DNA of 64,000 nt, from contig CANXME010002068.1 in NCBI GenBank assembly GCA_948144175.1, positions 1,302,001 through 1,366,000 on the forward strand, given 5' to 3'. Position numbers and translations under genes: made by a program. Each line of letters starts with the position of its first letter. Position 1 is the first letter of the stretch. Source of the stretch: Closterium sp. NIES-65. Its lineage: Eukaryota > Streptophyta > Zygnematophyceae > Desmidiales > Closteriaceae. Below the pieces are notes generated by a model, which was not told the DNA's origin, searched no databases, and saw only the letters and a list, made by a program, of their open reading frames with translations. Of this stretch, positions 13,946-49,497 are shown one piece after another.

Positions 13946-16174
13946 CAGGTTCTTGGTCTTCCGCCTTCTACTGGTCCTCCTCCTTCTTTAGCGTGTCCAC
14001 AGCCAGACCCGTCACAGTTACAGTTGCAGCCTTCCTCCTCTTTGCATGCTCCTTCTCCCTATACTGGTCCTACTTGAGGTCTTACTGAGCGTCGTGAGCC
14101 TGCGTCTCGCCCTGCGTCGCCTGTCCGTGCTGCTCGCGCTAGTGGTCGTGGTTCGCGTCAGCGTCCTCCTCCTGTCCCTGGCACGCACAGGATGTCTCTG
14201 CGTCCGTCCACTGCTCCTCTGCGTGCCCCTTTGCCCTGTCCTTCTGCGTCCTCTCTTCCTGCTTTTGCCGACCCGGAGTCGGACTCTCTTCGTGCTGCTA
14301 GTCCTACTGTCACGCGTCTCCTGGCTACTGTCGTCACTGACCCTTCCTTCGAGTCCACTGCTGCGTCTGCCTTAGTTGCTGAGCTCGTCGACTTTGCTGC
14401 TCGCTGTCGCCTAGACTACGCTGCTAGTCTTGTTGCTGAGTCTGAGTCTGTATGTCCTCCGTCCGTCGGGGGTGAGTGTGCCCTTGGCACGGACGTCCTT
14501 GAGGACAGGTAGGAGGAGTTCCAGTGCTTTGCTACTGCTTCACCTCATCTCGTGTCCGTACTCCTTACCCCTGAGGGAGACCCGGATGTACTTGACAACC
14601 CGACTCCGCGCTCTTACGCGGAGGCGATAGAGGGTCCCTACTCCTCTTAGTGGCATGCAGCTATGGATGCAGAGATGGCTTCCTGGAAGTCCACAGGCAC
14701 CTACGTTGACGCTGTCCCCCCTCCTGGGGCGAACATCGTCAGTGGCATGTGGATCTTCAGGGTGAAGCGGCCGCCGGGTTCTCCGCCTGTCTTCAAGGCG
14801 CGTTACGTGGCTCGTGGCTTCAGTCAGCGGCAGGGAGTTGACTACTTTCAGACCTTCTCTCCCACCCCGAATATGACCACTCTTCGGGTACTGCTGCACG
14901 TTGCTGCTCACCGTGACTACGAGCTGCACTCTCTTGACTTCAGTACAGCTTTCTTGCAGGGCAGCCTGCACGAGGAGATCTGGCTGCGCCGCCCACCTGG
15001 CTTCACTGGGTCTTTCCCTCCTGGTACCCAGTGGAGTCTCCGGCGTCCAGTCTACGGTCTCCGCCAGGCGCCACGTGAGTGGCACGACACACTGAGGACT
15101 ACGCTTGTTTTCTTGGGTTTGCTCCTTCTACTGCCGACCCGTCGCTGTTTCTGCGCACCGACACCTCTCTGCCGCCGTTCTACATCCTCGTGTACGTCGA
15201 CGACTTGGTCTTTGCCAAAGCTGACACTGCTGGACTCGCCTACGTGAAGTCCGAGGTGCAGAAGAGACACACGTGCACAGACCTGGGTGAACTGCGCAGC
15301 TACCTTGGCTTGCAGATCACCCGGGACAGAGCACAACGCACTTACTCTGACTCAGTCACACATGGTGCAGCAGGTCCTTCAGCGCTTCGGCTTCACGTAC
15401 TCCTCGCCTCAGGCCACTCCTCTGTCTACTCGCCACTCGCTCTCAGCTCTGCCTTCGGATGAGTCCGTAGAGTCGAGTGGCCCGTATCCAGAGCTTGTTG
15501 GCTGCCTCATGTACCTGATGACCTGCACACGACCTGACCTTGCATACCCTCTTAGCATTCTCGCACGCTGTGTTGCTCCTGGTAGACACCGACTAGAGCA
15601 CATGGCTGCAGCGAAGAGGGTGTTGTGCTACGTGTGCAGTACGTCGGGCATGGGGCTAGTGCTTGGAGGGCGGAGTCCAGTGGTCCTCACTGGGCACGCG
15701 GACGCTTCTTGGGCTGACGACCAGGCTACGCAGCGGTCGTCACTGGGCTACACCTTCAGCCTTGGTTCCGGCTCTGTTTCGTGGCGGGCTACTCGCTCGT
15801 CTTCTGTTCTCGGCTCCAGTTGTGAGGCTGAGATCTACGTTGGGGCCATGGCTGCACAGGAGCTTCGCTGGCTCACCTACCTGCTGACCGACCTTGGAGA
15901 GTCGCCTCGTTCTCCTCCAGTCCTCTATGTAGACAACAAGGCCATGCTGGCCTTGTGTCGAGAGCAGAGACTGGAGCACAGGACGAAGCACATTGCTCTT
16001 CGCTACTTTCTTGCTTGTGAGCTACAGCAGCGTGGTCAGCTGCGGCTTGCGTACGTGGCCTCTGAGGCCAACACTGCTGATGTCTTCACCAAGGCACTTG
16101 CGCCTTATGATCATCAGCGCTTCTGCACGCAGCTGGGTCTTGTGCCTGTCTTGCCTCACTTGCTCACCTCTTGA
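13946..16174 (+). pseudogene. Copia A reverse transcriptase and RNase H
   Basis: Homology continues past the 13943 stop through further stops at about 14510 and 14648, both TAG for CAG. The RT begins MASWKSTGTYVDAVPPPGAN (14663 on), includes FSTAFLQGSLHEEIW (motif A region) and YVDDLVFAKADTAG, and has frameshifts near 15100-15115 and 15340. RNase H runs GHADASWADDQ ... SSCEAEIYVGAMAAQ and ends with the copia C-terminal tail ADVFTKALAPYDHQ. Together with the upstream damage, A cannot make an active polymerase. Confidence 0.88.
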
Positions 16175-16383
16175 CCTTGCTCGCACTGTTGCATATATAT
16201 ACACGTGCTCTTGCTTGTCTAGTCCTTTATATATATCTACTCCTGCATGTGAACTGCCTTGTGGCCTTGAACTTGTGCTCGGAATGTGTGGTGACTTTGT
16301 GATCCACCCTGAGCTTGCTTTGCTTTGCTTTGCTTGACTGGTCTTGTGACCCCTTGTTCTCCCCCACTTTGCCTATGGGGGTG

Positions 16384-16514
16384 TGTCAGAACATATAGCT
16401 TGTGCTTATTGTGTAGGCTATAGTGGGGTAGCCCATAAGGGGTACAACCCAATTAGGGTAAATACTTGTACTCAGTTCATTCATAGTTCAATCATTCTCG
16501 TTTCAGTTTTCTCA
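16384..16514 (+). repeat. Copia A 3' LTR
   Basis: 131-bp partner of 4115-4245. It is followed by CGGTG, the second copy of the target duplication. Confidence 0.93.
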
Positions 16515-17035
16515 CGGTGTGGGTCGGCGATGCGCAGGACGGGCGGTGAACAAAGAACATTTTTCAGGGCAGAGAAGGCAGCATGCTCTTTCTCCCCCCA
16601 CGTAAAAGCGACCCCCTTCCGCAGTAAATCCGCCAGTGGGACAGTTAACCGTGCCATATCGGGGACGAACCGACGCACATAATTAACGAACCCTAAAAAG
16701 CTCTGCAGCTCTGTGATGTTCGTCGGGGGATGCCACGCTTTTACCGTATCCAGCTTCTTTGGGTCGATTTCAACTCCAGCCTCCGAAATAACGTGCCCCA
16801 AAAATTCTAACCTATCCTGGAAGAACTCGCACTTGGAACCCTTGGTCAGTAATCTGTGCTCGTCTAAAACCTTAAACACTGCTTCCAGATCTGCTAAGTG
16901 CTGCTGCTTATCCCGACTGTACACTAGGATGTCGTCGAGGTAAACTATTACACATTTATTTAAGAGCGGCCTAAATGCATCGCTCATGGTCATCTGAAAA
17001 GTCGCCAGTGTGTTGGTCAGCCCGAATGGCATCAC
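16515..17035 (-). pseudogene. G1 reverse transcriptase, C-terminal half
   Basis: Minus-strand reading gives MMPFGLTNTLATFQMTM, the catalytic box IVYLDDILVYS, FLGHVISEAGVEIDP and the connection region FLGFVNYVRRFVPDMARL, ending at LRIADP where copia A inserted; RNase H continues at 4114. The YLDD pair is intact. The join to the N-terminal half (17032-18279) needs a one-base shift near 17075, where an extra A throws the frame out. Confidence 0.88.
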
Positions 17036-18279
17036 AGTGTACTCGAACGACCCGTACCTAGTCCTGAAAGCTGTTTCGGCGCAGTCCGATGATCGACCCT
17101 AATCTGATGGTAACCTCCCCGTAAATATATTTTCGTAAGAACCCGTGCTGTTCGCAGTTGGTCGATCAGTTCGTCGGCGCGGGGAATGGGGTACCGCGAC
17201 TTGACTGTTACCCTGTTCAGTGCTCTGTAGTTGATACACATGCGAAAACCCCCGTCTTTTTTCGGCGTGAATAGTATCGGTGCGGCGAACGGTGACGAGC
17301 TCGGTCTGATGAATTTTTTCTCTAACAGGTTACCTAACTGCTTCCTTAGTTCGTCAAGCTCGGGCTGTGTCAGTATGAACTGGCGCTGTACGGTTAGCTG
17401 TGCCCCCAGTTCTAATTCGTTTCGTTGGTCATGTGCTCGCTGAGGTGGCACTCCTTCTGGTAAGTCGTCGGGGAAAATCCCGGGGTATCGTTTCAAGAGT
17501 TCCTGTAATTCGGGCGGTACGGCTGCCAGCATTTTCTTGAAATCACTCGGCTGCTCTGCTTCCTCTACTACTACGATGTCTACTGCGTACACGTCAGCTC
17601 CAGTAGCGACAGCCCGTTTCATTGTGATGGTGTTGACGTGTACCGTTGAAGACTCGGGCGACTGCCAGCGAGGTAGCTCGACCCAGTTACCACTACTTCG
17701 CACGGTGCAGCTACCCGTCATCCAGTCAATTCGCGGGTTGTATCGTCGCAGCCAATCACGTCCTAGTAAAATATCGTGCCCATCCAGTGTCGTTGCGAGC
17801 ATTTCCTGTGTAAACCCTGAATTTCCCCCGCAACGGACTTTGAATCTCTCTACCTTCTCCCGTATGGCCAGTGGCGTGCCGTCGACTAAGCGTGCGTCTA
17901 TCTCTGGTAAGCAACGGCTAAGTGTCAGCTGCAGTTTTCGTGCGGTTGCGGTATTAACTAAACTGTGGCTTGCTCCTCCGTCGATAAAAATCTTCACTGC
18001 TGCTCCCTGTATTTTCCCGTGGATCAGTACTGGGCAATCCATTGCTGTACCCTCCTTATTCGTCCGAGTCCGATCGATAGCATGAATTGGTACTGTGACT
18101 CGGTGAGGGTCGGTGGGGTTGGGCGAGCAGGCAGTCTCGTCAGTAGTTGGCCCGATTCCTACTGACTGCTGGCGTTTCCCTGCTTTGGAGACTCCCTCCC
18201 CTGCTCTGCTCCGCGGCGCCTTAGCTCCTCTGGGCATTCGCTCTTGCGATGGCCCGGCCTGTTGCAAGCAAAGCATCAC
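17032..18279 (-). pseudogene. G1 protease and RT N-terminal half
   Basis: The protease shows FIDGGASHSLV, where Gly replaces the usual Ser/Thr after the catalytic Asp, and later DILLGRDWLRRYNPRIDW, typical of gypsy proteases. RT follows: EKKFIRPSSSPFAAPILF, TPKKDGGFRMCINYRALN, then LTKIYLRGGYHQIRV. In gypsy RTs the last motif is normally IDLR, so the catalytic Asp of motif A is Tyr here. The frame ends after a one-base insertion. Even without the nested insertions the polymerase would be inactive. Confidence 0.88.
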
Positions 18280-19205
18280 CCCTTAAACGGTGCGGCAGCT
18301 GAATTCGTCGCATCGGCATGTACAGTGGCGTGCTCGATCGGTCCCCGATGACGATGTCCATAGTAGGACCCCGGTCTCAGACGGCGTAAAATGTCGATTT
18401 TCTCGGCGAGCGCGAGAATCTCGTTGAAGTTCGAGAGCCCGCGTAGCATGATTTCGTGCGAGATGTCCGGCTTCAGCCCTCCGACGTAACGGTCCACCCG
18501 CTCCGCTTCGTGCATGTAGCCGACTTGCTCGCATAATGCGAGAAAACCACTCGTATAGTCTTGAACCGATCCAAGCTGTCGCCGAGTGCGCAATCTCTAA
18601 CGCGCCGAAATAGAAGTCGCGATCGGCTCGAAGCGCGCTCGAAGCCCTGCGCACCACGCATCCCACGTGCTGTATTGGGCAGTCTCGCAGAATGAACTCC
18701 AGGTGACAGCTGGGCCCGTGGGCCCTTCCTCTTGCGACGATGGCTCGTACGCGCGTAGCGACGTTGCGATCACTCGCCACCAGTCCATGGCGGGGCCCCT
18801 TAGCAGCAAAACGACATACCGAATCTTTGCTGCGTCCGACTCGACGTAATTCGCGTCGAAGAAGATGTTCATCGTGGCGCCATCGCTGGCTGCGCCTGAG
18901 CGCTGTCTCACGCTGTTGTTTTGTGTTGGTGTGCCGAACGAGTTGACGATCGGCTCGTCTGATTGTGCAGATGCATTTGTCGGTGCGTGTGGTGGCGCTG
19001 GAGTGTTCATCGTTGATTGCTGACGTGCGGAGTCACGTTCCGCCGTGAGCGTCGCAATTTCGGGCGCCGAATCTTCAAGTTGGCGCACCAGACGGTCGAG
19101 CTGCTCCTGCGACAATGTGGCGAGCGTGAATACGGCCACGGCGGGGGTGTCGGGCGAGCTCAGCGAGAGCCTCGGTCGTGGCCGTGCGTGCTTACGAGAG
19201 AGCAC
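18276..19205 (-). pseudogene. G1 gag
   Basis: Two frames separated by a stop at about 18594-18596 make one gag: a coiled-coil-like LSQEQLDRLVRQLEDSAPEI, capsid-type LLLRGPAMDWWRVIATSL, WDAWCAGLRARFEPI, then QDYTSGFLALCEQVGYM and YVGGLKPDISHEIML. The likeliest start is the ATG at 19010 (MNTPAPP); the frame is open further upstream. I do not find a zinc knuckle in the C-terminal part. A second overlapping frame is a shadow. Confidence 0.75.
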
Positions 19206-19322: not shown

Positions 19323-19665
19323 TGTTACGAGTGCAATTGAGTGAACGAACGAGAATTGCACTATCGAAGCAAGAGTACAATGAGCGAAGGCATGAGCGAA
19401 GAATATATAGCGAAACTACAGTGGTAACGGTAATGGACTGTGGTTGTCGCGCGACGGGCCTGGGACTGAGGTTGGGAAAAAGTGTCGAAGCGGAGGCCTG
19501 GAGCACGGGTTACCCGCCGAGCCGTAAGGTGGGGGTGCGATGTGCGGAGGTGGCGGGCGGATTGTCGATGCGAGGGTTGCGAGTGGTAACGGTGCTGACT
19601 GTGGTGCTACAGTGATGTACGCGTTGAGCAGGGATGCGAAGTAAGGAAAAGGAATTTTCCTTACA
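19323..19665 (-). repeat. G1 LTR (5' LTR), upstream neighbour of TERT
   Basis: 343-bp partner of 170-512. Its right edge lies 328 bp from the chosen TERT start. The LTR drives transcription leftwards, away from TERT, if it still has promoter activity. Confidence 0.93.
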
Positions 19666-19993: not shown

Positions 19994-22900
19994 ATGGAAT
20001 GCGACGCACGGGGAGAGGGGCGAGGGGGTGCCAGTGGCGGGTGTGCCAGTGGGGGGTGTGCCGAGACAGGCGGAGGGGGCCTCGTAGCAGCAGGTAGTGA
20101 GGAAGCGGGAGCAGCAGCAGCAGCAGCGGCAGCAGCGGCAGCATGTGGGGCAGCAGGCGAGCAGGTGGGTGTGCGGGTGCTGCGGCGTCTGTACCCCGGC
20201 ATAGCGCCCCTCGCCCACTTGCTCCGCCTCCCACTGCTCGCCCGGGGAGGCGACGCACCCACACCCAAAGGCAGGGCGGCAAAACGCGGAGCACAACGGG
20301 GCGAGGTGGAGGGCAGAGCAGGAGAAGCGTGCGGAAACGAAACGGAACGAAGATGTTTGGAGGAGGAGGCGTGCGAGGGCGAGTGTGACGCGAGAGGCAC
20401 GAGAGTCACGCGAAAGCGGCAGCGGGACACAGACGGTGCCATCGACAACAACAATGCGCGAGGGAGAGGAGGGTGGGCGACAGGAGGAGCGGCGGAGGAG
20501 GAGGAGGATGAGGCGGTGGAGAGTGCGGTGAGGGAGGCCCTGGCGTGGATGCCTGAGGAGCACTGTGCTGCGCTCCATGCACTGCTGCTGCAGGGGGGAG
20601 AGGGGGGGAGGGGGCATGAGGAAGCAGGTGGTGGTGGCGAGGATGGCGAGCAGGGAGGGCGTGGTGGCATGAGGTGGACGCAAGAGGAGGTGCGCTGCTA
20701 TGGGCTGCCATGGCTTGGCATGGCTTGGCAGGCATGGCTGCGGAAAAGAACTGGCACACACCCGTTGTTAGTGGTGTGGGGTGGCATGTTGTGGCAGGGC
20801 AGTGTGCTGTCAGCTGTGCCTGCACTGCACCATGCCTGCCATGCGGGTGGTCTCCTGTCCAGCTTTTGAGGCACCTAAACAGCTGTGCCTGCAATGCATG
20901 CAAGCAATGCCTGTCAAGCCTGCGATGCGTGCCATGCAAACATTGCATCATCTTGGCAGTTGGCAGATGGCAGCAGCCAGCTTGTCAAACGAATGACCGG
21001 AAGAAACAACGTTTCACAAATTCTAGAGAGACGGTATTTCAACACTCTCATTTCCACTCCACCTGAACGGGCTTCTGCTACTGTCCGCCCGTCCCCCTCT
21101 GCACGCGTGCACCAGGTTGTGACACGTGTTGTGCTGCGGCACTTCAGGCGCTCTGCTGCCCTGCCTCAAGGCGCGGGCGGGCGTGGTGGATCAGCGGGCG
21201 TGGCAGCGAGGCAGGGCGCACGGGCAGCTGGGAGGGGCCGTGCGGGCAGGGCGGGCATGCAAGGGCGGCAGCGCCATGGGGGGGAGGCGGATGAGCATGA
21301 GCGCGCTATCCAAGGAAGCGTGCTGGCAGCAGGATTCAGGCGGGTGAGGAGAGGCGTTATGGTGGGTGGGTGAGTAGGTAGGTAGGTGGGCTCGGCTCTG
21401 CATCATTCCTCCTCACGCCTATCCGTATCGCATTTGCATTCTTCCCTCTCTCATCTCCCCCCTCACGTGTCACTGTCCAGTGTGCAGTGCTGTGCGTTGA
21501 CCTTGTGTTCCTCCCTCCTCTGCCCTGCTGCTGTGCTGTGCTGTGCCTGCACGGACCACACCTCCTCGTGCTTGTTACCTGCATACATGGCAGGCTATGC
21601 CCTTCACGTCGCCGCAGAGTGAGCTGCAGTGGGCCACGGCGCCGCCATGCCTTCCCGGCTTGCAGCAGAACCACATTCCCACCCACTCACTCTCGCCCAT
21701 GCCACCAAACAACACTCTCTCCCATCCCTCCTCCTCCTCCGCCTCCAACCCACCCAAGCCCATTGCGCCTGCCACCACCCTGCCAGCTGCTGCGGCGTCA
21801 CCTGTGACCTCGCCTCTCCCGCACAACACGGCGTGGGCCGTTGTCACGTCGCCCCCCTGGCAGCACCTGCTAAACAAGGTGCTCACCTCACCCCACCACG
21901 CGTGCCTGCCTGCCCGCCTGCCCCATGCCTCCTTGCCGTGTGCATGTGTGTGTGCCTCGTCGTCGTGTGGTTGTGACGCTGACGCACGAGCTGCACTGCA
22001 TTCCCTCTTGTCGGCTCAGTCATTCAACCACTCCTCCCTCTCACCACCCTCTCCTGCTGCTTCTTTATCCTCCTGCTTCTCCGTGCCCCTCCCCTCCCCC
22101 GATGATCACACACCCACACCTCGTTCCTGCAGGTGGGCGTGCCAGCAATGGTTCATCTGCTCTCGCATGCCTCCATATTCGTGCCACTTGGAGCCTCCTC
22201 ATTCGTCCAAGTGGCAGGCCCTCCTGTATCCAGCCATGCACTGCAATCGCGCTGCTCTACCTTCGACCGCCTACACCCTCCTGCGTCACCCCACTCCCGC
22301 CCTCCATGCCACTCCCCTGCTCTTGGCACCGCGCACGCCCAGCCATCAGCAGCATGCGTGCCCTCGCGCACGCGCTATGTGGTGGCACGTGTGGCAGTAG
22401 GCACTGGTGGTGGGGGGGGTCTTCGTGGCAGTGCTGCGGTGGGCGGGGTGCAGCACAGAGGGAGAGGCAGGAGGGATGCTGGGAGGAGCAAGGACGGCGG
22501 CACGGGTGTGCATGTGTGGAGTGCAGGACAAGGCCGGGGGAATATGGCGACGGAAAAGGAGGTGGCGGGGAGTACAGGAGGAGAGACTGAGGAAGGGCGG
22601 GGAGGGGAGGGAAGGATGAGGGTGGGGTGGGCGAGGGCAGATGGGTCAGTTGGAAGAAGGGGAGTCGGTGAGGGAGGTGGGGATGGGCGCAGAGGGGAGG
22701 AGAGCAGGCGTGCAGAGCGAGGTGCGGGTGAGGGTAAGGGCGTCCCTGGGTGGCCCAAGGAGGTGGCTGGGGGAGGGGAGCGAGACGCAGAGCAAGCAGA
22801 GGGCGGCTGTGACAGGGAGGGGCAGGTGGGAGATGGTTCAGATGATGGGGTTTACGTGGGTGCAGAGAAGAAGAGAAAGAGGGGGAAGAGGAACAGGGGC

Positions 22901-25900
22901 GGCCGGAAGGTGCAACGGAGTGCGGAAAGGAGAAAGGGAGGGGAAGGTGGGTGTGGTCATGGGCGGGGAAGAGAAAAAGGAGCAGAGGGGAACGGAAGGG
23001 AGGGGGCAGATGGTGGACGGTGCGTGGATGCAGAGGCAGGGAGAGATGCTGCTCGTGGCAGGGGACATGGGTGGAAAGGCGAGCGCGATAGGGAAGGAGA
23101 GAACGGAGAGAACGGGCAGCACCGAAGAGTGGGCGCTGTGGAGAGAGGTGTGGTGGAGGAGGGGGGTAAGCGACAGGAGAAGGCAGGTGAGATAAGGAGA
23201 GAGGCAGATGAGGATGGGAGGACTGCTCGCCAGCATCCTTCTCAGCATCACCGGCACGGCACCTTTCCTTCACCACGACCATCCGTGCTCCCTGCACCCC
23301 ACAGCACGTCCCTGCTGGCAGGCGTGCAGCGGCAGCTTGTGCCGCGCTCCTCGCTCTTCTACTGCTCCAGCTTTGCTCTTCACCCCGGCCTGCCCAAGTC
23401 ACGTAAGCCCACACACAGCAGCAGGGTTCAGGAGGGAGGTCAGGCCAGGCTGTTAGGCTCAGAGTCGAGCTGGTGCAGTAGACGTTTGAATGCAAGTGGA
23501 AGTTTGGCAGTTTGGCAGCTTCGCAGTTTGGCAGGTGGATTGCATGGTATGTGCCCCCAAGAGTGTGTTTCCTTCCAAGAATGTGACCATGCGCATCTAA
23601 GAGAGCATGTCGCCGCCCCCTCCAATCCACCATAACCTGCCATGCCACCACCTCTCCCCGAGCGTGTATGTCAGTCCCATGCCCTCTCTCTCGCTTGTGA
23701 ACTACCCCTGTCATCTACCCCTTCTCTCCGTTCCCCCTTCCCTCCTGCTCCTCCCAGACATTCTGAACCGCCTTCCCGCCACAAGAGAGGGTGCGGGGCA
23801 GCTGTACCAACACGTCTTCCATCAGCCCCTAGAGCGCGCAGCAGCAGCACCTGCTGCATGCGCACAGCAGCACCAAGGGGCAGTCTGTGGGCCCGCCGCT
23901 TACCTGCTCAACGCCCCGCCCTCGCCTGCTCTTCTCGCCCTGCTGCACTCCATGCTCCGCCGTGCCCGTGCATGCAACTTCTCCCGCCTGCTCGCCAAGC
24001 ACTGCCCTCTCCCTGCCGCCTCCTCTCCAACCCCGCTTGCTGCTGCCGCGCCTGTACAGGCCGCTGCTGGAGACGCTTCTACTGCTAAAGCAGCAGCCAG
24101 TGCTGCTGTCGGTTCAGGCAGTGCCCGTGACGTGGTGGCAGGATCAGATGGGGCTGCTGAAGCTGTAGCAGCAGCGCGTGGCAGTAGTACCAGTGACGCG
24201 CCTTGCAATGGCGCTGTCTCCACCAGTGATGCCAGTGAACGTGCACCTGCTCATGCTGTGCAGCCAGCGGCAGTGGACATGCATGGCCGCCCACCCGCCA
24301 TGAGTGCTCCTGCTGCACATGTGAGCGGCACACCCAGAGCGCCATCACCTACACCTGATGCTCATGCACCTGTGCCTGCGGCTGATTCGGCAGTGGAAGG
24401 TGAAGCTGCTGCCACGCCCACTGCAAATTCTGCTGCTGAGGCCGTTGACGCTGGTTTGCCCTCACGCTCACGCGAGCACGCACCCCTTGGGACACTTAAT
24501 TCAGGCAGCAGGAGAAGAGCAGGGAGTGGGAGTGGGAGTGCAAAAGGGCAGGGCATGGGGAGCCTGAGGGAGGTGCCTGTAGAGGAGCTAGTGCAGGCCA
24601 CGAGCAGCCAGCAGCAGGTAGCTAACTTCACATGGGCCGTGATCCGTAGCATCGTGCCTTGCCATCTGCTGCCCTGTGGGAGAGATGAGGGCATAGCAGT
24701 GGTGAAGAAGGGTGGAGCAGGGGGAAGGGGAACAGCAGAGGTTGGAAGGGGAGGAGAAGTGGAGGCGGGAGGGAGAAAAAGGGAAGCGGTTGCTACGGTA
24801 GCAGTTGCAGCAAGGAGGCAAGGCGGACGAGGGGTGGGCGGGGAAGCTGCCTCTAAGGCTGCAAAGCAGCATGGCAAGGGTGGGAGAAAGGGAAGCATGC
24901 GGCGGATGAGACAGTTGATAGGTCGCTTTGTTGGGCTGCGCAGGTTCGACCAGTTCCCCCTGCACGCCGCCATGCACCGCTTGCCCACCGCCTGCCTCCC
25001 CTGGTCCCCTGCCGCAATAACCAAGGCCAGTGGGCGAGGGGGGGGTGAGAGAGAGGGTCAGGGGGGAGAAGCACGGGGAGGGAGTGGACGGAGCAGGAGG
25101 GAGAAAGAACAGGAGAGTGGTAAGAAGCAGGGGAGTTGTGGGATGGATGAGGAGGAAGAGCAAGGTGTGGCGAGCGAGGAGGAGAGGGGGAGAGATGAAG
25201 AGGTGGAGATGCGGAGGGGGGACGAGGGCGAGCAGGCAGGGCAGCAAGAGCAACCGAAGCAGGTGCAATCAGTCTGTGAGGGGCAACAGGAGCAGGGCGG
25301 CGGTGGGAGGGTGGCAGCACGGCATGTGCATGCAGTGCAGGCGCACCGGGTGCTGAGCTGCCTGTGGGTGCAGTGGGTGCTGGCGGAGCTGGTCATTCCC
25401 GTGCTGCGCAGCCACTTCTATGTCACGGAGAGTGAGGTGCAGCGCCACACCGTGTGCTTCTACCGCAAGCCCGTATGGGCCCGCATCAGGTCACCACCGC
25501 TGCTGCTTCCCCTGCCATGCTCTGCCCTGCCGTCCTCTGCCCTGCCTTTTCCTGCTGCACGTGACTGTATGCGCTCGTTGTGCCCCGGTGCCACTGATCT
25601 TCCATGCAGCCATGCTGCGTTCCTTTATCTGACCACCCCTCTATGTGACCACCTCTCGCCTCTCTTCACATCCATGCGTGCACCTACCGTCCTTGCATGC
25701 TGACCTGCCAATGCGTGCACGTGCACCCTTCCCCCCCTGTGTGCTCTGCAGGTACCTTGCACTGCAGCGCCTTGCCTCCTCCGCCACCTTCCACAAGCTC
25801 ACACCTGCTGCTGCCAAGCACCTACTCCTCCCCCCCCGCCGCACCACCGCCCCTGGCCACCGCACAGCTGCAGCCAGCCAAGGCAGCAGCTTCAAGGGTG

Positions 25901-26722
25901 GAGAGGCAGGGGGCGGCGGAGGGGAGGGGCGTGCGCTGGGAGTAGCGCGCGTGCGGTTTGTGCCCAAGGCGCAGACGGTACGACCCATTGTGAACCTCGG
26001 CGCCAGCAGCCACGTGTCCCTCGCTCCCAGAGGAAAACGGACGCGCAAGAGAGCGAGACCCGGGGGACGGGATGGGAAGGGTGGAGGTGCATGGGAGGTG
26101 GAAGAGGGTGGGGAGGAGGAGGTGGGGGGGATGCAAGGGAGAGCAGAGCTGGATGCTCAGTTTCGATCCGCCTTTGGAGTGTTTGCTGCGGCTGCCCCAG
26201 GAGGCGGGGGCGAAAGACAAGGCGGTGGGGGTAGCGTGGGGCAGGGGATTGGGGAAGGTGGGGATAAGGGGAGTGGGGAATGTGGGGAGAAGGGGAGTGG
26301 GGAAGGTGGGGATAAGGGGAATGGGGAAGGTGGGGTTAAGGGGAGTGGGAAAGGTGGGGACAAGGGGAGTGGGAAAGGTGGGGGTAGGGAGGGCGACGAA
26401 GAGGATGAGGGGTGTGCAGTGGGACGTGGTGAGGAGGGGCCACGTGACGGTGCTACTGAACGCCCTGTGGGGGGAAGATCCATGGGTAGAAAGGATGGTT
26501 CTGACTGGCGTGATGCGCATGGTGGGCGTGGTGGGCGTGAGCAGATGCAGCAGAGGAAGGGAGAGGAGGAGCAGGTCTGTAGGACTGCCATAGCCAGAGA
26601 TAAGGGAGTGAGGAAGGTGGTGGTGAGTGAGAGAGAGGGGGGGAGACAGGATCAAGACAGGGATTCTGTGGATGGACAATTGGCGATAGGGCATGGTGTT
26701 GCTGCTGCTCCTGCTGCTCGTC

Positions 26723-26761
<39 letters not shown>

Positions 26762-29700
26762 TTCCCTTGAAGAGCAGGGAGAACGATATCACTTGTGCCA
26801 CTGCTTCCTGTGGCTCCTCTCCTGCTCCACCTGCTGCTGCTCTTTCTGGTGACCGGGGGATGAAGAGCACTGGGGAGGTGAAGGAGGACAGTAGTGCTAA
26901 GCGAGTGGACAACAAGGGCGAGGCAGATGGATCCTCATCCTCATCCACATCCTCATCCACACAGGAAAGCAGGTATGCAGTGGGGGAGATGGCCGAGGCA
27001 GCAACTCAGATGCCACCAGCTCAGTGCTCGTGCTGTGCCATACAGCTGCAGAATCGGAACCAGATGAACAGCGAGCAGCAGCAGAATGAGGGTCATGCAT
27101 CGGTGCCACCGGAAGGGCAAGACCGTAGCCCTGGCATTGCACAAGCACAAGGGGGTGGCTGGGAGACTGCTCCGCCTCCGCCCGCGCCCTGCCTGCACTG
27201 CTTCACTATGCGCCCCACTGGGCCGCGTGCAGCAGCCCGCTTCTGGGAACTCACCCGCAAGAGCAAGCCCGGGCGTGTCGTGGGGCAAGACCGGAACGGG
27301 CAGGGGGCAGTTAAAAGGGATGATGGTGGCGGGCCGGGGAGGTTTGGGTTGCGACGGTGCGAGAAGAGGAAAGCGGTGTATGATGTGTGTGGGCCGAGGG
27401 GTGAGCACGTGGGGAGAAGAGGGATAGGAGAGAGTGAGGGAGAGAGAAAGAGAGTGAGAGTGGGGCGAGTTGCTGAAGGTGGGTGTGACGCTTTGGAAAG
27501 TGGTAGAGAGGGGGAGCGACGGACAGGCGGCAGGAAGAGAAGAGGTGGGGAAGGAGCCAAGGAGCAGCGAGAACCAAATCGCGTGGTTGCTGCTGCTGCT
27601 GCTGCTGGTTCCTCACCAGCAAGTAGCGGTACTGCTCCTGCCGTTGCTGCTCCGAACGTTGCAGGTGCTTTTGGAAATACTAATGCTGCTACTACAACCA
27701 GGGATGAAACCGCAGCCCCCTCGCAATCGCACGTGGCCCCACAGCAGCGCACACAGCAGCCCACGCAGCTGCTGCAGCAGCTCTCCACGGCCTTCCCAGG
27801 CCTCCTGTCAGAAGTGCCTCGCAGTGTGCCCGGGGTTCCAAGGATCTTCCTTGAGGCCCTGCGCATGCGCAATGAGCTTGTGGTGGGGGCGTGTCAGGCC
27901 ATAGGGAGGAGGCGACAGTCACAGCCCAGCCCTGCCACGCTACCTCCAGCAGGAGGCGCCCGCATGCCTGCAGAGGGAACAGCAGGCATGGGCCCCCTAG
28001 AGCTTGCCACGGCAGCAGACGGCGAGGCAGCAGAGGAGTCAGATTCAGAGTCAGAGGACTTTTTTGGGTCCGTGTTGAGAACCGTTCGGCAGGAGAACAG
28101 AGTCGCTGCCGCTGCTGCCAAGGCCGCGAGGGCCCGTGCACGTCCAGGTGCTCAGGTGCGTCAACAGCACAGGGATCTCCTCCGCAACGCAGGGATCTCC
28201 CCAGGGGCCGCTGAAGAGAAGCAGATTTCGCAGGTGGCTGTGGGTGGTGGTGCTGTGGGTGGCACCGGCACCGGCACCCCATGCGCCACTGATCACGTGC
28301 CGACCATCATCTCAGGAGCTGCCCGCACACGGCCGTACAACTTCAAGCCGAGGCCAATCTTCCGGGTATCTCCTCTTGTACTCAGCACTCCCACGCCTCC
28401 AGCTCCTCGTACAACAGTAACTTCTCCTGCCAGCCGTGCTGACACCCCAGGGGCTGCTGCTGCTGCTGCCGTGTGCACGCCTCCCCCTCCTCCTGCGCTG
28501 CCAGATCGCCCAATTCACTGCCCTCCTCTCCCCCCTTCTTGCACCTCCCCGCCCGTATCCTCTGCCCTTCCTGACTCGTGCACGCCTATTCCTGATCCCA
28601 AGCAACCCACAGTCACAGAGCATCGGCAGGCGGCGGCGCAGCAGGCTGGGAAGGCAGGGGAGCAGGAGGAGGGCGAGCGGCGACCGGTGCAGGCAAAGAG
28701 GAGGCGGCAGGTGGTGCGGTTTGGGCCGATCAACAGTGGTTTGAGGAGCATCCACACATGCCTGCAGGTGGAGAGCAGGCGAGGGTGGCATGGCGGAGGG
28801 GGGCACCATGACAGGGCTGCCCAGGATGCTGCATGCTGCCATGGCGCTGAGGCACGTGGTGGTGGTGGTGATGATGGCATGGCATGTGAGGGTTTAGGTG
28901 GTGGTGCCACTGCCACTCAGAGTCGGTACGACAGGGCGATGCAGAGGAGTGGGGATGGGGCGGCGAGGGATGATCAGAGGAGAGAAGCTCAGGGGGAGGA
29001 TGAGCAGTGCGGTGGGGAAGGAGAAGAGCAAGAGGAGGTCGGGGGAGGGGAAGGAGAGGATAGCAGGGAGGAAGGGAGCAGAAAGAGGAGGAAGGAGAGT
29101 GGGCGCACGGGCAGAGGAGAGAGGATCCGCGGGGGTGGCGATGATGGTGCTGCGAGTGGTATGGGGATAGGGAGGAACATTGAGGGGGTGGTGAGTGAGG
29201 GGAAGGAGGACGGTAAGAAGAGGAGGAGCAGTGAGGAGGAGAATCAAGTTGGAGTCGAGGGAAGAGGAATGGGAGGTGCAAACCAAAAGCTGGGAAGTGG
29301 GGTGCGAGGTTGCGTAGGGGAGGCGAGGCAGTGCAGGGAGGGCAGGCTAGGAGCATCTGTGTTTGGATACAGTGATGCGTATGGGCGCTACCGTGCCTTT
29401 GTGCTCCGCTTGAGAGCCCGCCTGCCTGCCATGCGCGGCCCCACTGCGCACCACACTGCCTGCAGCACCCCGGGGCAGCAACAGGGGGAGGTGTGGGATG
29501 GGACGTGTGAGGCGAAGCAGCAAGAACGATGGTTCAATCAGCAGCTGTGTGACTGGTGGCGTGAGAGGGTGACACGTGTACCCCCTGTGTACATGGCAGT
29601 GTGTGACGTGGCACAAGCATATGACACGATTCCGCACGCCAAGCTCTTGGAAATCATGCAGGTGAGAAGTGGTGCAGGTGACACGTGGTGCAGGTGAGGA

Positions 29701-32700
29701 GTAGCGCAGCTATGGCTGATGCGATGACAAGTGATATGAACGAGTGTCTAAAGGGCTCATTCAGAACCCTTGTTCACTCCGAGCCCTCTCCTTCTCTACC
29801 CACCTTCCCCTTTCCACTCCACGGCTGTGAGCAGGAGTTTGTTGAAACGCCAGCCTACATTGTACGACGCTTCTCTGCCATTGCACCACGAGCCAATGGG
29901 CTCATCACTCCCAGGTCCCACAGAGCAGCCATGCCCATGCCCATGCCCATTCCCATGCCCACTCCTATGGCACCTGAACATCCATGTGCTACAGTGACAC
30001 CTGCGGTGACACCTGTGACTGCTGGATCTGGCATGGCAAGACCAGCAGCTGATGAGGTGCGAGGGGCAGGTGCAGCAGCAAGGGAGGCAGTTGAAGCAGC
30101 GGCGATGCTTGCATGCAACAGTGCAGCAGCGGAGCCAACAGCAGCAACACAAGCAACAGCAACGCCATCAGCGACAGCGGCAGCAGTGGTGGCTGTGAGG
30201 CCGTGGCAGCAGCGGCAGCAGCAGCAGCATGCATGTGTGCCATGGTGGTGCATTGTGCAGGCGGGGCAATCAGGGGCTTGCATTGTGGAGGATAAGGTGG
30301 GTGAGATGAGATGCGTTGGTGCCTCTCCCATCTGTGTGCATTGATTGAAATTGTTGGAACAAGGGGCTCCACCTGAGTGCGTGGGAGGTATGGAGCAGCA
30401 GGGGCTGTGAACAAGGCCGGACACACACGCGCGTGCACCTTGGTAGCTGTGCTTGCACGGTCAACACACTCAAATGATGGTGGGGTTGCGGGGAGAGTGA
30501 GGGCTGCTGACAAAGGGGGCAAGAGAGGGCATTCGGCTGGTGGAGGGAGGGTGTGGAGAGAGGAGTATGGGGAGAGGAGGATGGTGAAGGATGGGTTGCT
30601 GCAACTGTGATCAAACGAAACAAGCACGTTTGTTCAATCCCCCTCTTCCACTCTACCACTGAAACACTTGCACTCTATTTTCTCCTTATCCCTCCCCTCC
30701 ACTGCCACGTCAGGGCCTGACTTCCCTGTGGCATCGCGACCACATACTCCAGCTGCTGCGGCGCCACATCAGCTGCCACGTCATCAGGGCTGGGCGGCAG
30801 TTTTTCTTGCAGCGAACAGGAATCCCGCAGGGCTCGGTGCTGTCTGCGCTGCTGTGCTCCCTCTTCTATGCACACCTGGACCGCCACGTGCTCCTCCCCT
30901 CCCTCACACCACTTGCCCTGGGTGCTCCTTTGCCACCGGAGGGTGGGGAGGGCAGGAGTGCAGGGCAGGGCGGGGAGTTGGGAGAACACAGGGGGGACGG
31001 GGGCGAGGAGGGGGCGGGTGAAGGAGGCGAGTGTGAGAGGCGCAAGGAGAGGGAGAAGAGATGGGAGGCAGTGCGGGTGAGGGTAGGGATGGTTGGAGCA
31101 GAGGAGAAGGAAGGAGAGGCTTGTGGGAGTGGTGCCAAGCCAGTGCATCCACCTAGACATAGCAATTCCCAGCAGCAACTCGAGCAGCAGCAGCAGCAGC
31201 AGCAACGTGACTCCCCTCCCCCTCCCCTTGGCGCCCACTCCCTGCTGCTGCGGCTCATAGATGACTCTCTCTTCATCTCCACATCGCAACCCCATGTTGC
31301 TGCTTACGTGGCCGCCATGCACACAGGCTTCCAGGAGTACGGCTGCCGGGCCAACCAGAGCAAGACAGCTGTCAACTTCCCACTGGAGCTGGGGAAGGGA
31401 AAAAGAGAGATAGGTGGGAGTGTGGCTGGTGGGGACATGGACGGATGTGGACGGAAGGAAGGAGAGCGGGTGGCAAGGGATGGAGGAATGCAGGTGGAAG
31501 AGGGCAGTGCAGGTATGGAGCAGCAGGGACAGGAAGGAGCAGAAAGAATGGACGTGGAGGGGGAGAAGAGGATGGGGAATGGAGAGCAGGGCGAGGCAGG
31601 GGAAAGGCAGAGCGACGAGCGGACATTTCAGGAGAGGGTGTATGAGGAGGAGGTTGGGGATGGTGGGGAGATGGTGCAGGGCTTGGAGACGAAGCGGCGA
31701 TTCATGCGGTGGGCAGGGCTGCTGGTGAACTGCAGCACGCTGGAGGTGCAGGCAGACTACACCAGGTGCGCCCTCCCCTCCCTCACTGCCCCTCCCTGCA
31801 CTCCCTCTCATGCCGCCACTGCCCTGCACTTGCTGCTGTGGGTTGCCATCCTCCACGGTTGCTGCCCGAGGAACCTTCCCTCTCATCCTCTCCTCACCTC
31901 GACCACCATCTCTCCTCTTGCCTACCTTGTAGTAACAGCTCCCTTGGATACTTCTGCTCTTTGGCCCATGTCGTCTGCTTGCAAACTCCACGCGAGGCCA
32001 TGAACACCCTGTTGTCCTTCCCACGGCACGGCAGGTACTGGGGCACGGACATGGCCACAGCAGTGACAGTAAGTTTCTGTGACCCCCCTGCAACAGCGAT
32101 ACCCACGAAGCTGCGGCAGTTCCTGCGGCCCAAGTGCAGCGCACTACTCCTGGACCCTGCAATCAACAGTTCCCCCACACTGTTTGTCAACGCGTACCAG
32201 GCGCTGTGCCTCGCCGCCATCAAGCTCACTGCCTACTGCCGTGCGCGCCGCCTCTCCCCCGCTGCTGCCTGCACACCACGCTCTCGCTGCGTGCCTCGCA
32301 CGACTCGTGATCGTACCACGCACAGCATGGGAAAGAGCAAGTCAGGGGAGGAGAAGCCTTGGAAGCGAAAGGACGGTGGGGCCTCTCCTGCTGTGCGAGG
32401 TCGATGTGTGTGCCACGTACAGGCCCAGTTCTTCACCCGTGCGATTATTGACGCTATCAAGTAAGCTGGAGTAATGCTTTGTTCTCTCTTTTTTGCACCT
32501 GTTGAATTCAACCAGCTAACTTAGCTGCATTTGAGGCACTCAGTTCTCAAGCTTACACTCCTGCTCGGATTGTGTTTCCGGAGCAACAGATCTCTTTCCA
32601 TCCCTTCCACTCTCTCGTTCTCCTCCCCCCCCACCCCCCCCCCCCCCTTACCTCTCCCCCTCGCCCTTGCTGCCTGCAGCTACTATGCAAGGCTCATTCG

Positions 32701-32956
32701 ATCGCGGCTGGAAGCAGCATCCAGGGAAGTGGGAGAACCCATCCCATGCCTATTCACCACTGACATAGTCACCTTCTTGGGCCTCTCCGCGTTCACCACG
32801 GTTCTCAATGCAAAGCGCGGTGTATGGAAGGGCGTAGTTGTGAGGCTGCAAGAGCGGCTGCGGTGTAGGCAGATGGCAGCAGTTGGGGATGACCCCGTGG
32901 TTAAGCAGGCCTTGCATCCCAGCAGACACTCTGTCTTTGGACGAATCCTCTTCTGA
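19994..32956 (+). CDS. TERT: Telomerase reverse transcriptase (TERT), ten exons, about 3,445 codons
   Basis: Adds telomere repeats to chromosome ends using an RNA template. Proposed exons: 19994-20689, 21116-21343, 21594-21878, 22133-23402, 23758-25489, 25752-29661, 29835-30296, 30714-31765, 32035-32460, 32680-32956. All introns are GT-AG, phases agree and the total is 10,338 nt. TEN domain: VLRRLYPGIAPLAHLL, RWTQEE/VVTRVVLRHF, WQHLLNK/VGVPAMVHLL. RNA-binding domain: FYCSSFALHPGLPKSH/ILN, FTWAVIRSIVP, FVGLRRFDQFPL; T motif: FYVTESE ... FYRKPVWARIR. RT: motif 1 VRFVPKAQTVRPIVNLG (about 1471), motif A VCDVAQAYDTIP (Asp 2689), B' GIPQGSVLSALLCS (2897), C LLRLIDDSLF (Asp 3044-3045), D YGCRANQSKTAVNFP, E MRWAGLLVN. 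C-terminal extension: KLRQFLRPKCSALL and YYARLIRSRLEA. Nothing is broken and all three catalytic Asp are present. TERTs are usually about 1,100-1,300 residues; the excess is low-complexity insertion. The start and exon 1 are the least certain parts. Confidence 0.93.
22240..23310 (+). repeat. Low-complexity insertion in TERT exon 4
   Basis: About 360 codons between the TEN end (FVQVAGPPV) and the RNA-binding domain (LVPRSSLFYCSSF). They are Gly/Arg/Glu/Lys-rich and purine-rich on the coding strand. The frame stays open and in phase, so I treat it as coding linker, although an unrecognised intron is possible. Confidence 0.6.
26230..26391 (+). repeat. G-rich tandem repeat inside TERT exon 6
   Basis: Units of about 15 bp encode GEGGDKGSGEGGDKG-type protein repeats. 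Four or more GGGG runs occur within short distances on the coding strand, so the DNA or RNA could form G-quadruplexes. Confidence 0.8.
26708..26762 (+). repeat. GCT/CTG triplet microsatellite in TERT
   Basis: An imperfect (GCT)n run in frame, coding for an uninterrupted Ala stretch. Similar shorter CAG runs (poly-Gln) occur at 31180-31205 between motifs B' and C. Confidence 0.85.
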
Positions 32957-34738: not shown

Positions 34739-34871
34739 TGTGAGAATAAGCGAACAGGAATGGGTGAACTAGAAGTGAAAATGAGTACAAGTAGTAAACC
34801 CTAGAACTGTGTACCCCCTATAGGCTAACCCACTGTAGCCTACACAAGCATAACATATATAATGTTTGACA
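34739..34871 (-). repeat. Copia B 3' LTR
   Basis: 133 bp; one mismatch against 41470-41602. Confidence 0.95.
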
Positions 34872-35077
34872 CACCCCCATAGGCAAAGTGGGGGAGAACA
34901 AGGGGTCACAAGACCAGTCAAGCAAAGCAAAGCAAGCTCAGGGTGGATCACAAAGTCACCACACAGTCCGAGCACAAGAGCAGGGCCAGAGGCCAGTTCA
35001 CATGCAGGAGTACAGACATATATATAAAACTAGACAAGCAAGAGCAGGTATATATATATGTCACAGTACAAGTAAAG

Positions 35078-38000
35078 TCAAGAGGAGAGCAAGTGAGGCA
35101 AGACAGACACAAGACCCAGCTGGGTGCAAAAGCGCTGATGATCACAAGGCGCGAGTGCCTTGGTGAACACATCAGCAGTGTTGGCCTCAGAGGCCACGTA
35201 CGCAAGTCGCAACTGACCACGCTGCTGCAGCTCACGAGCAAGGAAGTAGCGGAGAGCAATGTGCTTCGTTCTGTGCTCCAAGCGCTGCTCTCGACACAAG
35301 GCCAGCATGGCCTTGTTGTCTACGTACAGCACTGGAGGAGAACGAGGCGGCTCTCCAAGGTCAGTCAGCAGGTAGGTGAGCCAGCGAAGCTCCTGTGCAG
35401 CCATGGCCCCGGCGTAGATCTCAGCCTCACAACTGGAGCCGAGAACCGAAGACGAGCGAGTAGAGCGCCACGAGACAGAGCCGGAACCAAGGCTGAAGGT
35501 GTAACCCTGTGACGACCGCTGCGTAGCCTGGTCGTCAGCCCAAGAAGCGTCCGCGTGGCCGGTAAGGACCACTGGACTCCGCCCTCCAAGCACAAGCCCC
35601 ATGCCCGACGTACTGCACAGGTAGCGCAATACCCTCTTCGCTGCAGCCATGTGCTCTGGTCTGTGTCTCCCAGGAGCAACATAGCGTGCAAGAATGCTCA
35701 GAGGGTATGCAAGGTCAGGTCGTGTGCAGGTCATCAGGTACATGAGGCAGCCAACAAGCTCTGCATACGGACCACTCGACTCTACGGACTCATCCGAAGG
35801 CAGAGCTGAGAGTGAGTGGCGAGTAGGCAGAGGAGTGGCCTGAGGCGAGGAGTACGTGAAGCCGAAGCGCTGAAGGACCTGCTGCACCATGTGTGACTGA
35901 GTCAAGGTAATGGTGCGGCGTGCTCTGTCCCGAGTGATCTGCAAGCCAAGGTAGCTGCGCAGTTCACCCAGGTCTGTGCACGTGTGTCTCTTCAGCAGTT
36001 CGGACTTCACGTAGGCGAGTCCAGCAGTGTCCGCTGTGGCAAAGACCAAGTCGTCGACGTACACGAGGATGTAGAACGGCGGCAGTGAAGTGTCGGTGCA
36101 CAGAAACAGCGACGGGTCGGCAGTAGAAGGAGCAAACCCAAGAGCCGCAAGCGTAGTCCTCAGTGTGTCGTGCCACTCACGCGGTGCCTGGCGGAGACCG
36201 TAGACTGGCCGTCGGAGGCTCCACTGGGTGCCAGGAGGGAAAGTCCCAGTGAAGCCAGGTGGACGGCGCAGCCAGATCTCCTCGTGCAGGCTACCCTGCA
36301 GGAACGCAGTGCTGAAGTCGAGAGAGTGAAGCTCGTAGTCGCGCTGAGCGGCTATGTGCAGCAGTACCCGAAGAGTGGTCATCTTCGGGGTGGGAGAGAA
36401 GGTCTGAAAGTAGTCAACTCCCTGCCGCTGACTGAAGCCACGAGCAACGTACCGCGCCTTGAAGACAGGTGGAGAGCCCGGCGGCCGCTTCACCCTGAAG
36501 ATCCACATGCCACTGATGATGTTCGCCCCAGGAGGGGGAACCGCGTCAACGTAGGTGCCTGTGGACTTCCAGGAAGCCATCTCTGCATCCATAGCTGCCT
36601 GCCACTGAGAGGAGTAGGGACCCTCTACGGCCTCCGCGTAAGAACGCGGAGTCGGGATGTCTAGTGCATCCGGGTCTCCCTCAGGGGCAAGCAGTACAGA
36701 CGCGAGATGAGGTGAAGCAGCCGCTAGACACTGTAACTCCTCCTGTCTGTCCTCTAGGACGTCCGTGCCAAGAGCACACTCACCCCCGACGGACGGAGGA
36801 CAGACAAACGCAGACTCAGCAAGAAGATGAGCAGCGTAGTCGAGACGACAGCGAGCAGCAAAGTCAACGAGCTCAGCGACTAGAGCAGACGCAGCAGTGG
36901 ACTCAAAAGAGGGGTCAGTGACGACAGTAGCAAGCAGACGCGTGACAGTAGGACTGGCAGCACGAAGAGAGTCCGACTCAGGGTCGGCAAGCGCAGGAAG
37001 AGAGGACTCAGGAGGAGAAGGCAAAGGGGCACGCAGAGGAGCAGTGGACGGACGCAGAGACATCCGGTGCGTGCCAGGGACAGGAGGAGGACGCTGACGC
37101 GAACCGCGACCACTAGCGCGAGCAGCACGAACAGGCGACGCGGGACGAGACGCAGGCTCACGACGCTCAGCAAGACCTCCAGTAGTACCAATGTAAGGAG
37201 AGGGAGCAGGCAGAGGAGAGGAAGGCTCCAACAGTGACTGCGACTGGACAGGCTGTGGACACTCTACCGAAGGAGAAAGACCAAGAACCTGCTGTAGGAG
37301 CGGAACGAAGTACGGCCGAGGCCGCGCGGCAGCTCCAGACTCAGCAGGGACAGCACCAGCACCCTCAGCGACAGCACCAGCGCCACCAACACCTCCAGTG
37401 GCAGGACCTCCAGCAGCACCAGCAGCAGAACCACCGCCAGGACAGACAGCAGTAGTCTCAGCACCAACACCCTCAGCAGCTCCAGCTCCAGTAGGACCCG
37501 CAGGCCCAGCAGCTCCGGGACCGGCAGCACCAGCACCCTCGACGGTCGACGAAGCTCCAGCTCCAGCAGCACTCCTCCAGCGGCGAGCAAACCACTCACG
37601 CAGCTCCTGTGGAGAGAGGGGCTCCCGGCGAGACGCAGCAGCAGGAGAAACCCCAGGCTCAGCAGCTCCAGACTCAGCACCCCCAGGCTCAGCAGCTCCA
37701 GACTCAGCACCCCCAGACTCAGTAGCTCCAGCTCCAGTAGGACCCGCAGGTCCAGCAGCTCCGGGACCGGCAGAACCCTCAGCAGGCGAAGAAGCTCCAG
37801 CTCCAGCAGCACGCCTCCAGCGGCGAGCAAACCACTCGCGCAGCTCCTGTGGAGAGAGCGGCTCCCGCCGAGACGGAAGAACCGGAGAGCCCCCAGGTCC
37901 AGCAGGCGCAGGCTCCGCACCTCCAGGCCCAGCACCCCCAGGCTCAGCAGCTCGTGACGTAGCACCCTCCGGCTCAGCACCCCCCGGCTCAGCACCCCCG

Positions 38001-40219: not shown

Positions 40220-40229
40220 GTAGAAGTAG

Positions 40230-41460
40230 GAGCAGGACTAGCAGCAGGGAGGCAGGCAGCCAGGCAAGCCAAAAGGCAGGCAAGCAGGCAAGCAGGCGAC
40301 GCGCAGCGTGCTAGCAGGGCAAGAGCTCACCAGTGGTGGGAAGAGTAGGCTCGGCGACTCAGCGGCTCGGGCGACTCGGGCGGCTCGGCGGCAGGGCGGC
40401 TCGGCAGCAACTGCAGCTCAGCAGCTCGGTGACTCGGCGGCTCGGCGGCAGGGCGGCTCGGCAGCAACTGCAGCTCAGCAGCTCAGCGACCCGGCGGCTC
40501 GGCGGCAGGGCGGCTCGGCTGCTGGGCGGCTTGGGTGCAGGGCGGCTCGGCGGTGGGGCGGCTCGGCTGCTGCAGGTGAGCGGCTCGGCTGCTGCAGTGG
40601 GAGATGAAGGAGGAGGAGAAGCAGGGGAGGCCACACACCTGCCACCCCTCTGCTGGCCTCTCCCGTCGCCTGTCGAGGCGACCTGAGGGGGCCGGGAAAA
40701 GGGGGGGTGGGTGGTGGGGGGCCGGTAGGTGCAGCGGCGGGGCCAGCAGGTGCAGTTGCGGGGCCGGTAGAAGGGGACGGCAGGAGCCGTCAGGAGGGGA
40801 CGGCAGGAGCCGTCAGGAGGGGACGGCAGGAGCCGTCAGGAGGGGATGGCGGGGCCGTCAGGAAGGGACGGCGGGGCCGTCACGAAGGGACGGCGGGGCC
40901 GTCAGGAGGCAACCGGGCCGCGAAGGGGCGGCTGGGCCGGGATGGGGCGGGGCCGCGACGGAGGCAGGCGGCGGGGCCGCGTAAGGGCCTGGGCGGGGCC
41001 GCGACAGAGCCGTCGGCGGGGCCGCGTGAAAGCCGGGGCGGGGCCGCGTAGAAGCCGGGGCGGGGCCGCGCGAGAGCAGGCGGCGGGGCCGCGAAGGAGC
41101 CGGGGCGGGGCCGCGTGAGAGCAGGCGGCGGGGCCGCGTAAGGGCCTGGGCGGGGCCGCGACAAAGCTGTCGGCGGGGCCGCGTGAAAGCCGGGGCGGGG
41201 CCGCGTAGAAGCCGGGGCGGGGCCGCTCGAGAGCAGGCGGCGGGGCCGTGAAGGAGCCGGGGCGGGGCCGCGTGAGAGCAGGCGGCGGGGCCGCGTAAAG
41301 GCCGGCGGCGGGGCCCCGTCAAAGAGGGCGGCGGGGCCGCGACAGTGAAGGCGGCGGGGCCGCAGGGGAAATGGCGACCCGAGGGGTCGCTAAAAAAAAA
41401 GATCGCGCCTCGGGGGGCGCTTCGGTGGGCCCAAAAAAAAGGGTCCGTAGAAGGACCCGC
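40230..41460 (-). repeat. GC-rich leader repeats of copia B
   Basis: Between ORF and primer site. 40330-40600 is a GGCTCGGCGGCAGGGCGGCTCG-like array. 40740-40900 repeats GGACGGCAGGAGCCGTCAGGA-type units. 40960-41350 repeats GGGGCGGGGCCGCG units, with a higher-order duplication of about 160 bp. Dense GGGG runs lie on the plus strand. Confidence 0.85.
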
Positions 41461-41469
41461 TCTATACCA

Positions 41470-48311: not shown

Positions 48312-48319
48312 GTAGAAGC

Positions 48320-49480: not shown

Positions 49481-49497
49481 GGACCCGCTCTATACCA

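Follow-up and report, generated by a model that had tools for sequence, protein, structure and literature searches.

Structure of the gene and its locus

The stretch of Closterium sp. NIES-65 DNA analysed here (contig CANXME010002068.1, positions 1,302,001 to 1,366,000; 64,000 nucleotides, hereafter the window) contains an intact gene for telomerase reverse transcriptase (TERT) on the plus strand at 19994-32956. The gene consists of 10 exons, which encode 3,445 amino acid residues (aa) followed by a stop codon, with a predicted mass of 360 kDa, and all nine introns of the final model are bounded by GT and AG. An earlier note on this DNA had proposed a TERT of about 3,445 codons with closing exon phases and about three times the usual length. 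The start, the stop and the phases are as proposed, and the length compares with 1,016-1,670 aa in 17 of the 18 other TERTs examined and 2,194 aa in the remaining one.

A preceding gene model differs from the final one only in the acceptor of exon 2, which makes it 52 aa longer. It was corrected by plant TERT homology and by P0093, a protein of 3,250 aa that is deposited without a name for Closterium sp. NIES-65. The corrected junction reads WTQE-EVVTRVVLRHF, aligns with the WSQ..VVER block of moss TERT and is the same in P0093. The main counts given below were repeated on the final model, while the Markov statistics for exon 6, the residue counts for insertion i10 and the comparison with strain NIES-54 come from the preceding model. 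Over the aligned residues, P0093 is identical to the window TERT at 943 of 944 in the core and at all 2,198 in the insertions.

The closest protein relatives of the window TERT are from Closterium, a zygnematophyte alga. Among the best candidates scored in the 874-Mb assembly, one match to PF12009 and one to exon 8 are found, both at this locus, which speaks against another TERT gene in the same genome. Plasmids searched with exon 8 as the query give no match. By its sequence, the gene is the telomerase reverse transcriptase of a Closterium strain, very probably NIES-65, and the sole such locus found in the assembly.

Domains, motifs and phylogeny

Exon 5 matches Telomerase_RBD (PF12009) at 1.3e-19, indicating that the telomerase RNA-binding domain (CP, QFP, T) is present. 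The C-terminal extension is likewise present, with a match to TERT_C (PF21399) at 5.3e-07, above the cut-off. The TEN domain is indicated by two lines, each weak alone: a human TEN stretch aligns at 19 bits, and SPPWQHLLNKVG...FVQVAGPP aligns with plant TEN. The core of the window TERT aligns with human TERT at 3e-64, and what we take to be reverse transcriptase (RT) motifs 1, 2, A, B', C, D and E all lie in this order in the alignment (core residues 314-908). The three catalytic Asp residues are D2689 in motif A and D3044 and D3045 in motif C. Thus, the claim that all major TERT motifs are present in the right order with these residues kept agrees with the alignment. The region between motifs A and B' (the insertion in fingers domain, IFD) is longer in TERT than in non-telomerase RTs. 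The A and B' anchors are separated by 202 residues in the window TERT, as compared with 101-163 in the 18 other TERTs and 101-114 in 17 of them.

In a tree of 24 TERTs (819 columns), the window TERT lies inside the Closterium group (support 100), which joins Spirogloea (92) within the streptophytes (99), these supports being read from an unrooted tree. The tree and the RNA-binding and C-terminal domains rule out horizontal transfer and a non-telomerase RT. The single NCBIfam match is a group II intron RT, far under its cut-off.

Size and position of the insertions

Of the 3,445 residues, 969 belong to the core and 56 to the N-terminus; the other 2,420 are inserted and form 16 stretches. The insertion boundaries were set by us and are uncertain by a few residues. 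Coordinates are given in Table 1. The insertions listed in the earlier note are found where it had placed them and at similar sizes: a linker of 347 aa after TEN, three insertions in the RNA-binding region (183, 73 and 101 aa), one of 897 aa that separates motif 2 from the pre-A block, one of 188 aa upstream of motif A, and one of 97 aa between A and B'. The list is incomplete, because nine further insertions had been omitted: 84, 32, 45 and 65 aa within TEN, 29 aa before motif 1, 27 aa immediately before motif A, 103 aa between B' and C, 96 aa between D and E, and 53 aa in the C-terminal extension.

The distances between conserved anchors were compared with those of the 18 other TERTs; some anchors are misaligned in single rows (e.g. 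Ricinus, Calypogeia and Trebouxia), so that single values there are unreliable. Between the motif-2 and pre-A anchors lie 1,127 residues in the window TERT and 24-169 elsewhere. The B'-to-C distance is 137 in the window and 29 in one fish, one sponge and one fungus; Chlorella has 232 residues there, Trebouxia 240, and P0096, a metagenome protein described below, 523. QVANF and FVGLRR are separated by 94 residues, as compared with 24 in 15 of the 18 TERTs, and FYVTESE and RFVPK by 85, as compared with 48-53 in all 18. The C-D distance is 26 in the window and in all 18, and the WAGLLVN-LRPKC distance is 41 in the window and in 17 of 18. The added length is located mostly at junctions that are variable in green TERTs, and partly at junctions that are nearly fixed elsewhere.

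Residues I, L, V, F, M, Y and W account for 12.4% of the insertions and 34.3% of the core. Five basic clusters are present in the protein, all within insertions, and could be nuclear localisation signals. The top-scoring array of Tandem Repeats Finder is a 24-bp unit repeated 5.9 times, and only short arrays are listed, which rules out simple tandem expansion as the origin of most of the inserted length.

Table 1. Exons and principal insertions of the Closterium TERT gene (positions in the window; P numbers denote the proteins compared)
Feature	Position	Strand	Remarks
Exon 1: N-terminus, first TEN blocks, i1 (84 aa), i2 (32 aa)	19994..20689	+	Same start and exon-1 end in P0093
Exon 2: TEN, i3 (45 aa)	21116..21343	+	Junction as in P0093; acceptor as in P0095; skipped in P0094 model
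Exon 3: TEN, i4 (65 aa)	21594..21878	+	Ends identical in P0093, P0094, P0033
Exon 4: end of TEN (QVAGPP), linker i5 (347 aa), start of CP region	22133..23402	+	Human TERT alignment
Exon 5: RNA-binding domain (CP, QFP, T) with i6, i7, i8	23758..25489	+	Telomerase_RBD 1.3e-19; AlphaFold model, PDB match
Insertion i6, 183 aa	24015..24563	+	Low pLDDT
Insertion i7, 73 aa	24675..24893	+	pLDDT mostly low
Insertion i8, 101 aa	25014..25316	+	pLDDT mostly low
Exon 6 (3,910 nt): end of T region, motifs 1 and 2, i10, pre-A blocks, motif A with Asp 2689	25752..29661	+	
Insertion i10, 897 aa, motif 2 to pre-A block	26014..28704	+	Mean pLDDT 35.5
In-frame 24-bp minisatellite, 5.9 copies, within i10	26243..26383	+	One extra 8-aa unit in P0094
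Insertion i11, 188 aa, before motif A, with conserved island (residues 2499-2551)	28777..29340	+	
Exon 7: A-to-B' region with i13 (97 aa)	29835..30296	+	Conserved flanks align to human TERT
Exon 8: motifs B', C (Asp 3044, 3045), D, E, i14 (103 aa), i15 (96 aa)	30714..31765	+	RVT_1 4.6e-06, below cut-off
Exon 9: thumb/C-terminal extension, i16 (53 aa)	32035..32460	+	TERT_C 5.3e-07
Exon 10: end of C-terminal extension, stop	32680..32956	+	Same end in P0093-P0095, P0001, P0002

Coding properties and predicted structure of the insertions

The insertions contain no in-frame stop codon, whereas the other two frames contain 37 and 97. Over 1,303 codons, Markov sequences with the composition of exon 6 contain about 27 stops, and of 400 such sequences at order 2 and 400 at order 4 none is open. 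This result bears out the claim that the 3.9-kb open frame of exon 6 is hard to obtain by chance. Openness alone is no proof of coding, however, because a pyrimidine-rich, intron-like stretch of a family-B polymerase gene (L010) also reads open in frame. The period-3 signal is 2.2-25.0 in the 11 insertions of at least 60 codons and 0.2-2.7 in the nine introns; of the six insertions of 219-309 nt, five give 4.2-14.3 and one gives 2.2. This measure favours coding insertions and is regarded as supportive. A search of the genome for DNA polymerase B, aimed at protein inflation, gives 45 matches, from which insertions are not measurable. A tblastn search with the introns that are read through in deposited models gives many low-complexity matches, on which no conclusion is based.

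In an AlphaFold model, exon 5 folds as a TERT RNA-binding domain with a PDB match, and the i6-i8 loops have low confidence. The model of i10 has a mean confidence score (pLDDT) of 35.5, with 857 of 896 residues below 50, but is weak because its alignment holds four sequences only. A hidden folded domain within this insertion is therefore rejected only weakly. A helix pair is predicted at residues 2073-2124 within i10; it is kept in strain NIES-53 and missing from the model of one of the two Naga37s-1 copies, copy B. In the island at residues 2499-2551, 43 of 53 residues are kept in this diverged copy. The hydrophobic-poor composition and the structure models suggest that the insertions are disordered.

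Comparison among Closterium strains

The strains were compared as proteins and over aligned residues only. A 1,595-aa fragment from NIES-53 keeps 849 of 1,032 residues of the window TERT in the insertions and 458 of 490 in the core; its insertions differ by 12 insertions or deletions, every one of whole codons. Whole-codon changes are suggestive but not decisive, because deposited frames are open by construction. Naga37s-1 copy A (P0094; 3,235 aa) keeps 2,196 of 2,233 insertion residues and 891 of 902 core residues. Copy B (P0095; 3,097 aa) is diverged and keeps 1,188 of 1,833 and 731 of 860 respectively. Its model is without several inserted stretches, which may represent deletions or gene-model choices. 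Of the 897 residues of i10, 852 are aligned in P0094, 533 in P0095 and 493 in the fragment P0001, and P0093 is without 167. The comparison with related algae that the earlier note had called for thus finds much of the inserted sequence kept in frame in the Naga37s-1 and NIES-53 models. Core identity across three relatives is 85-99%. The insertions evolve faster than the core, yet stay largely in frame.

Two giant TERTs are deposited for Naga37s-1, copy A being 98-99% identical to the window TERT and copy B about 85% in the core and 65% in the insertions, whereas one TERT locus is seen in the genome of the window. Family-B DNA polymerase matches in this genome also contrast with the single TERT locus, since they lie on paired contigs with the same or similar scores (C1977/C1734, C2337/C1809 and C1687/C1637).

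Sequences surrounding the gene

A 343-bp direct repeat, 96.5% identical, is present at 170-512 and 19323-19665. Between its copies lie minus-strand frames for a protease/RT (17035-18282) and an integrase (6960-8669). This arrangement suggests a long terminal repeat element whose end lies about 330 bp before the start codon of TERT. Copies of Copia-type retrotransposons are present on both sides of the TERT gene, at 34739-41602 and 42727-49629 and at 11111-16514 and 51067-56520. They are 82-97% alike in long BLAST pieces, in direct and inverted orientation.

Interpretation

The Closterium gene very probably encodes a working telomerase of about 3,400 residues, in which long disordered loops are translated. 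The insertions would protrude from the core as long disordered surface loops, and the enzyme, with these loops outside the core, would bind template RNA and extend telomeres as other TERTs do; that it copies the template onto chromosome ends is inferred from knowledge of the family. The insertions may have arisen by lineage-specific expansion under weaker constraint than that on the core, mostly at junctions of variable length in green TERTs and in part at junctions whose length is nearly constant in other TERTs. Some insertions might, in addition, form a disordered but conserved arm with a role in recruiting or regulating telomerase in cis, a task of separate accessory proteins elsewhere. This extension is doubtful; the island at 2499-2551 and the helix pair at 2073-2124 are candidates for such regulatory parts.

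Several observations weigh against a giant translated TERT. A match to TEN in Pfam is found neither in the window TERT nor in the deposited models, and the RVT_1 match in exon 8 (4.6e-06) is below the Pfam cut-off, as it is in P0095, and barely above it in P0093 and P0094. The period-3 measure has flaws of its own: longer stretches score higher, seven core segments of comparable size give only 0.8-4.5, and the scores of the two lowest insertions overlap that of the highest intron. In the copy B model, part of the RNA-binding region is missing, PF12009 gives no match, and the RVT_1 and TERT_C matches stay below their cut-offs. A fragment from NIES-54 is 72.2% identical in the core (406 residues) and 62.5% in the insertions (664 residues), and in CP only 36% over 44 residues. 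A 624-aa model from Yama58-4 skips over motif C. The deposited models also disagree with the final model: P0093 is shorter by 167 aa in exon 6 and 80 aa in exon 7 and includes 52 aa of intron 4, and Naga37s-1 copy A is without 42 aa of exon 6, 133 aa of exon 7 and the whole of exon 2 (76 aa), and retains 24 aa of intron 8.

These disagreements bear on the possibility that the low-complexity blocks are exitrons, introns within the open frame that are spliced out constitutively or under regulation, which would make the main protein much shorter. Pieces with GT and AG at their ends are removed in frame in P0093 (27343-27843 and 30057-30713) and in Naga37s-1 copy A (27403-27528 and 29862-30260), those in exon 6 reading GT-AG only after a shift of one and two bases. 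Real splicing of these pieces is possible, because RNA-seq went into the annotation of the NIES-65 genome (PMC10407611); Naga37s-1 is not named in that text. However, the removed pieces differ between the two strains, which are 98% alike here, and the removals in exon 7 delete conserved TERT blocks, namely RRFSAIAPRANG in Naga37s-1 and GACIVEDK in NIES-65. The four removed stretches have a T content of 0.13-0.17 and no pyrimidine tract of at least 8, whereas the nine true introns have a T content of 0.22-0.31 and one to seven such tracts each. Moreover, the proteins are still 3,235-3,250 aa long after these removals. We read the removed pieces as probable gene-prediction errors, and a much shorter main protein is unlikely. 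Between disordered loops and in-frame splicing, which the earlier note had left as alternatives, the 2,420 open codons, the relatives, the models of 3,097-3,250 aa and the exon-5 fold favour loops, with splicing of some pieces possible. Mean transcripts are 2.0-2.2 kb in four strains according to the same paper (PMC10407611), and therefore giant proteins are not the rule in those strains.

It is very unlikely that the giant chain is translated and then cut into pieces that reassemble, so that the working enzyme is split. The TERT of Plasmodium berghei (2,312 aa) gives two blot bands, which its authors read as suggesting processing (PMC4183507), but there is no sign of a cut in the window TERT, although protease sites or splits were not specifically sought. 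Decay of the locus into a pseudogene, for which the retrotransposons on either side might speak, is extremely unlikely, because all 3,445 codons are open with the catalytic Asp residues kept, the core is conserved across the three relatives to the extent given above, and the locus is the sole TERT match among the best candidates scored in the assembly.

Comparison with other large TERTs

If translated as read, the giant TERT of Closterium is longer than the 18 compared TERTs and than that of P. berghei, which belongs to another lineage (PMC4183507). It shows at which junctions the TERT fold accommodates insertions of tens to hundreds of residues, some of these junctions being nearly fixed elsewhere, and at which it has none (C-D and WAGLLVN-LRPKC). 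The tolerance of telomerase for loops becomes testable by trimming and by in-frame comparison across one genus. Caution is needed in that gene models of such exons can disagree between near-identical genomes. A Closterium TERT is not named in the titles or abstract openings that searches of open-licence literature brought up. Since the gene is already deposited as an unnamed product and giant TERTs have precedents, which the earlier note had not mentioned, the Closterium TERT would be an extreme variant.

A gene model of Chlamydomonas, CrTERT (Cre04.g213652), is longer, at 5,019 aa, and insertion mutants in it have short telomeres (PMC6549138). Its authors state that the model is probably incorrect, with gaps, and that motifs A, D, 1 and 2 are not clear (PMC6549138). 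Both are oversized predicted TERTs of green algae with recognisable RNA-binding and catalytic ends, but unlike this doubted model, the Closterium TERT has an intact frame with the catalytic motifs, A, D, 1 and 2 among them.

If the gene model of P0096 is right, TERTs became oversized on more than one occasion in green algae. This large TERT (2,194 aa, JGI metagenome) groups with Chlorella (support 90) and has its biggest insertion at a different junction from the Closterium TERT, its B'-to-C span of 523 residues comparing with 137 in the window; a protein search from it finds itself and two weak relatives. The nearest relatives outside Closterium, the Spirogloea muscicola TERTs P0003 (1,474 aa) and P0004 (1,340 aa), are of near-normal size. 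They carry extra length at some of the junctions shared with the Closterium TERT; for example, their motif-2 and pre-A anchors lie 142 residues apart, as compared with 1,127 in the window.
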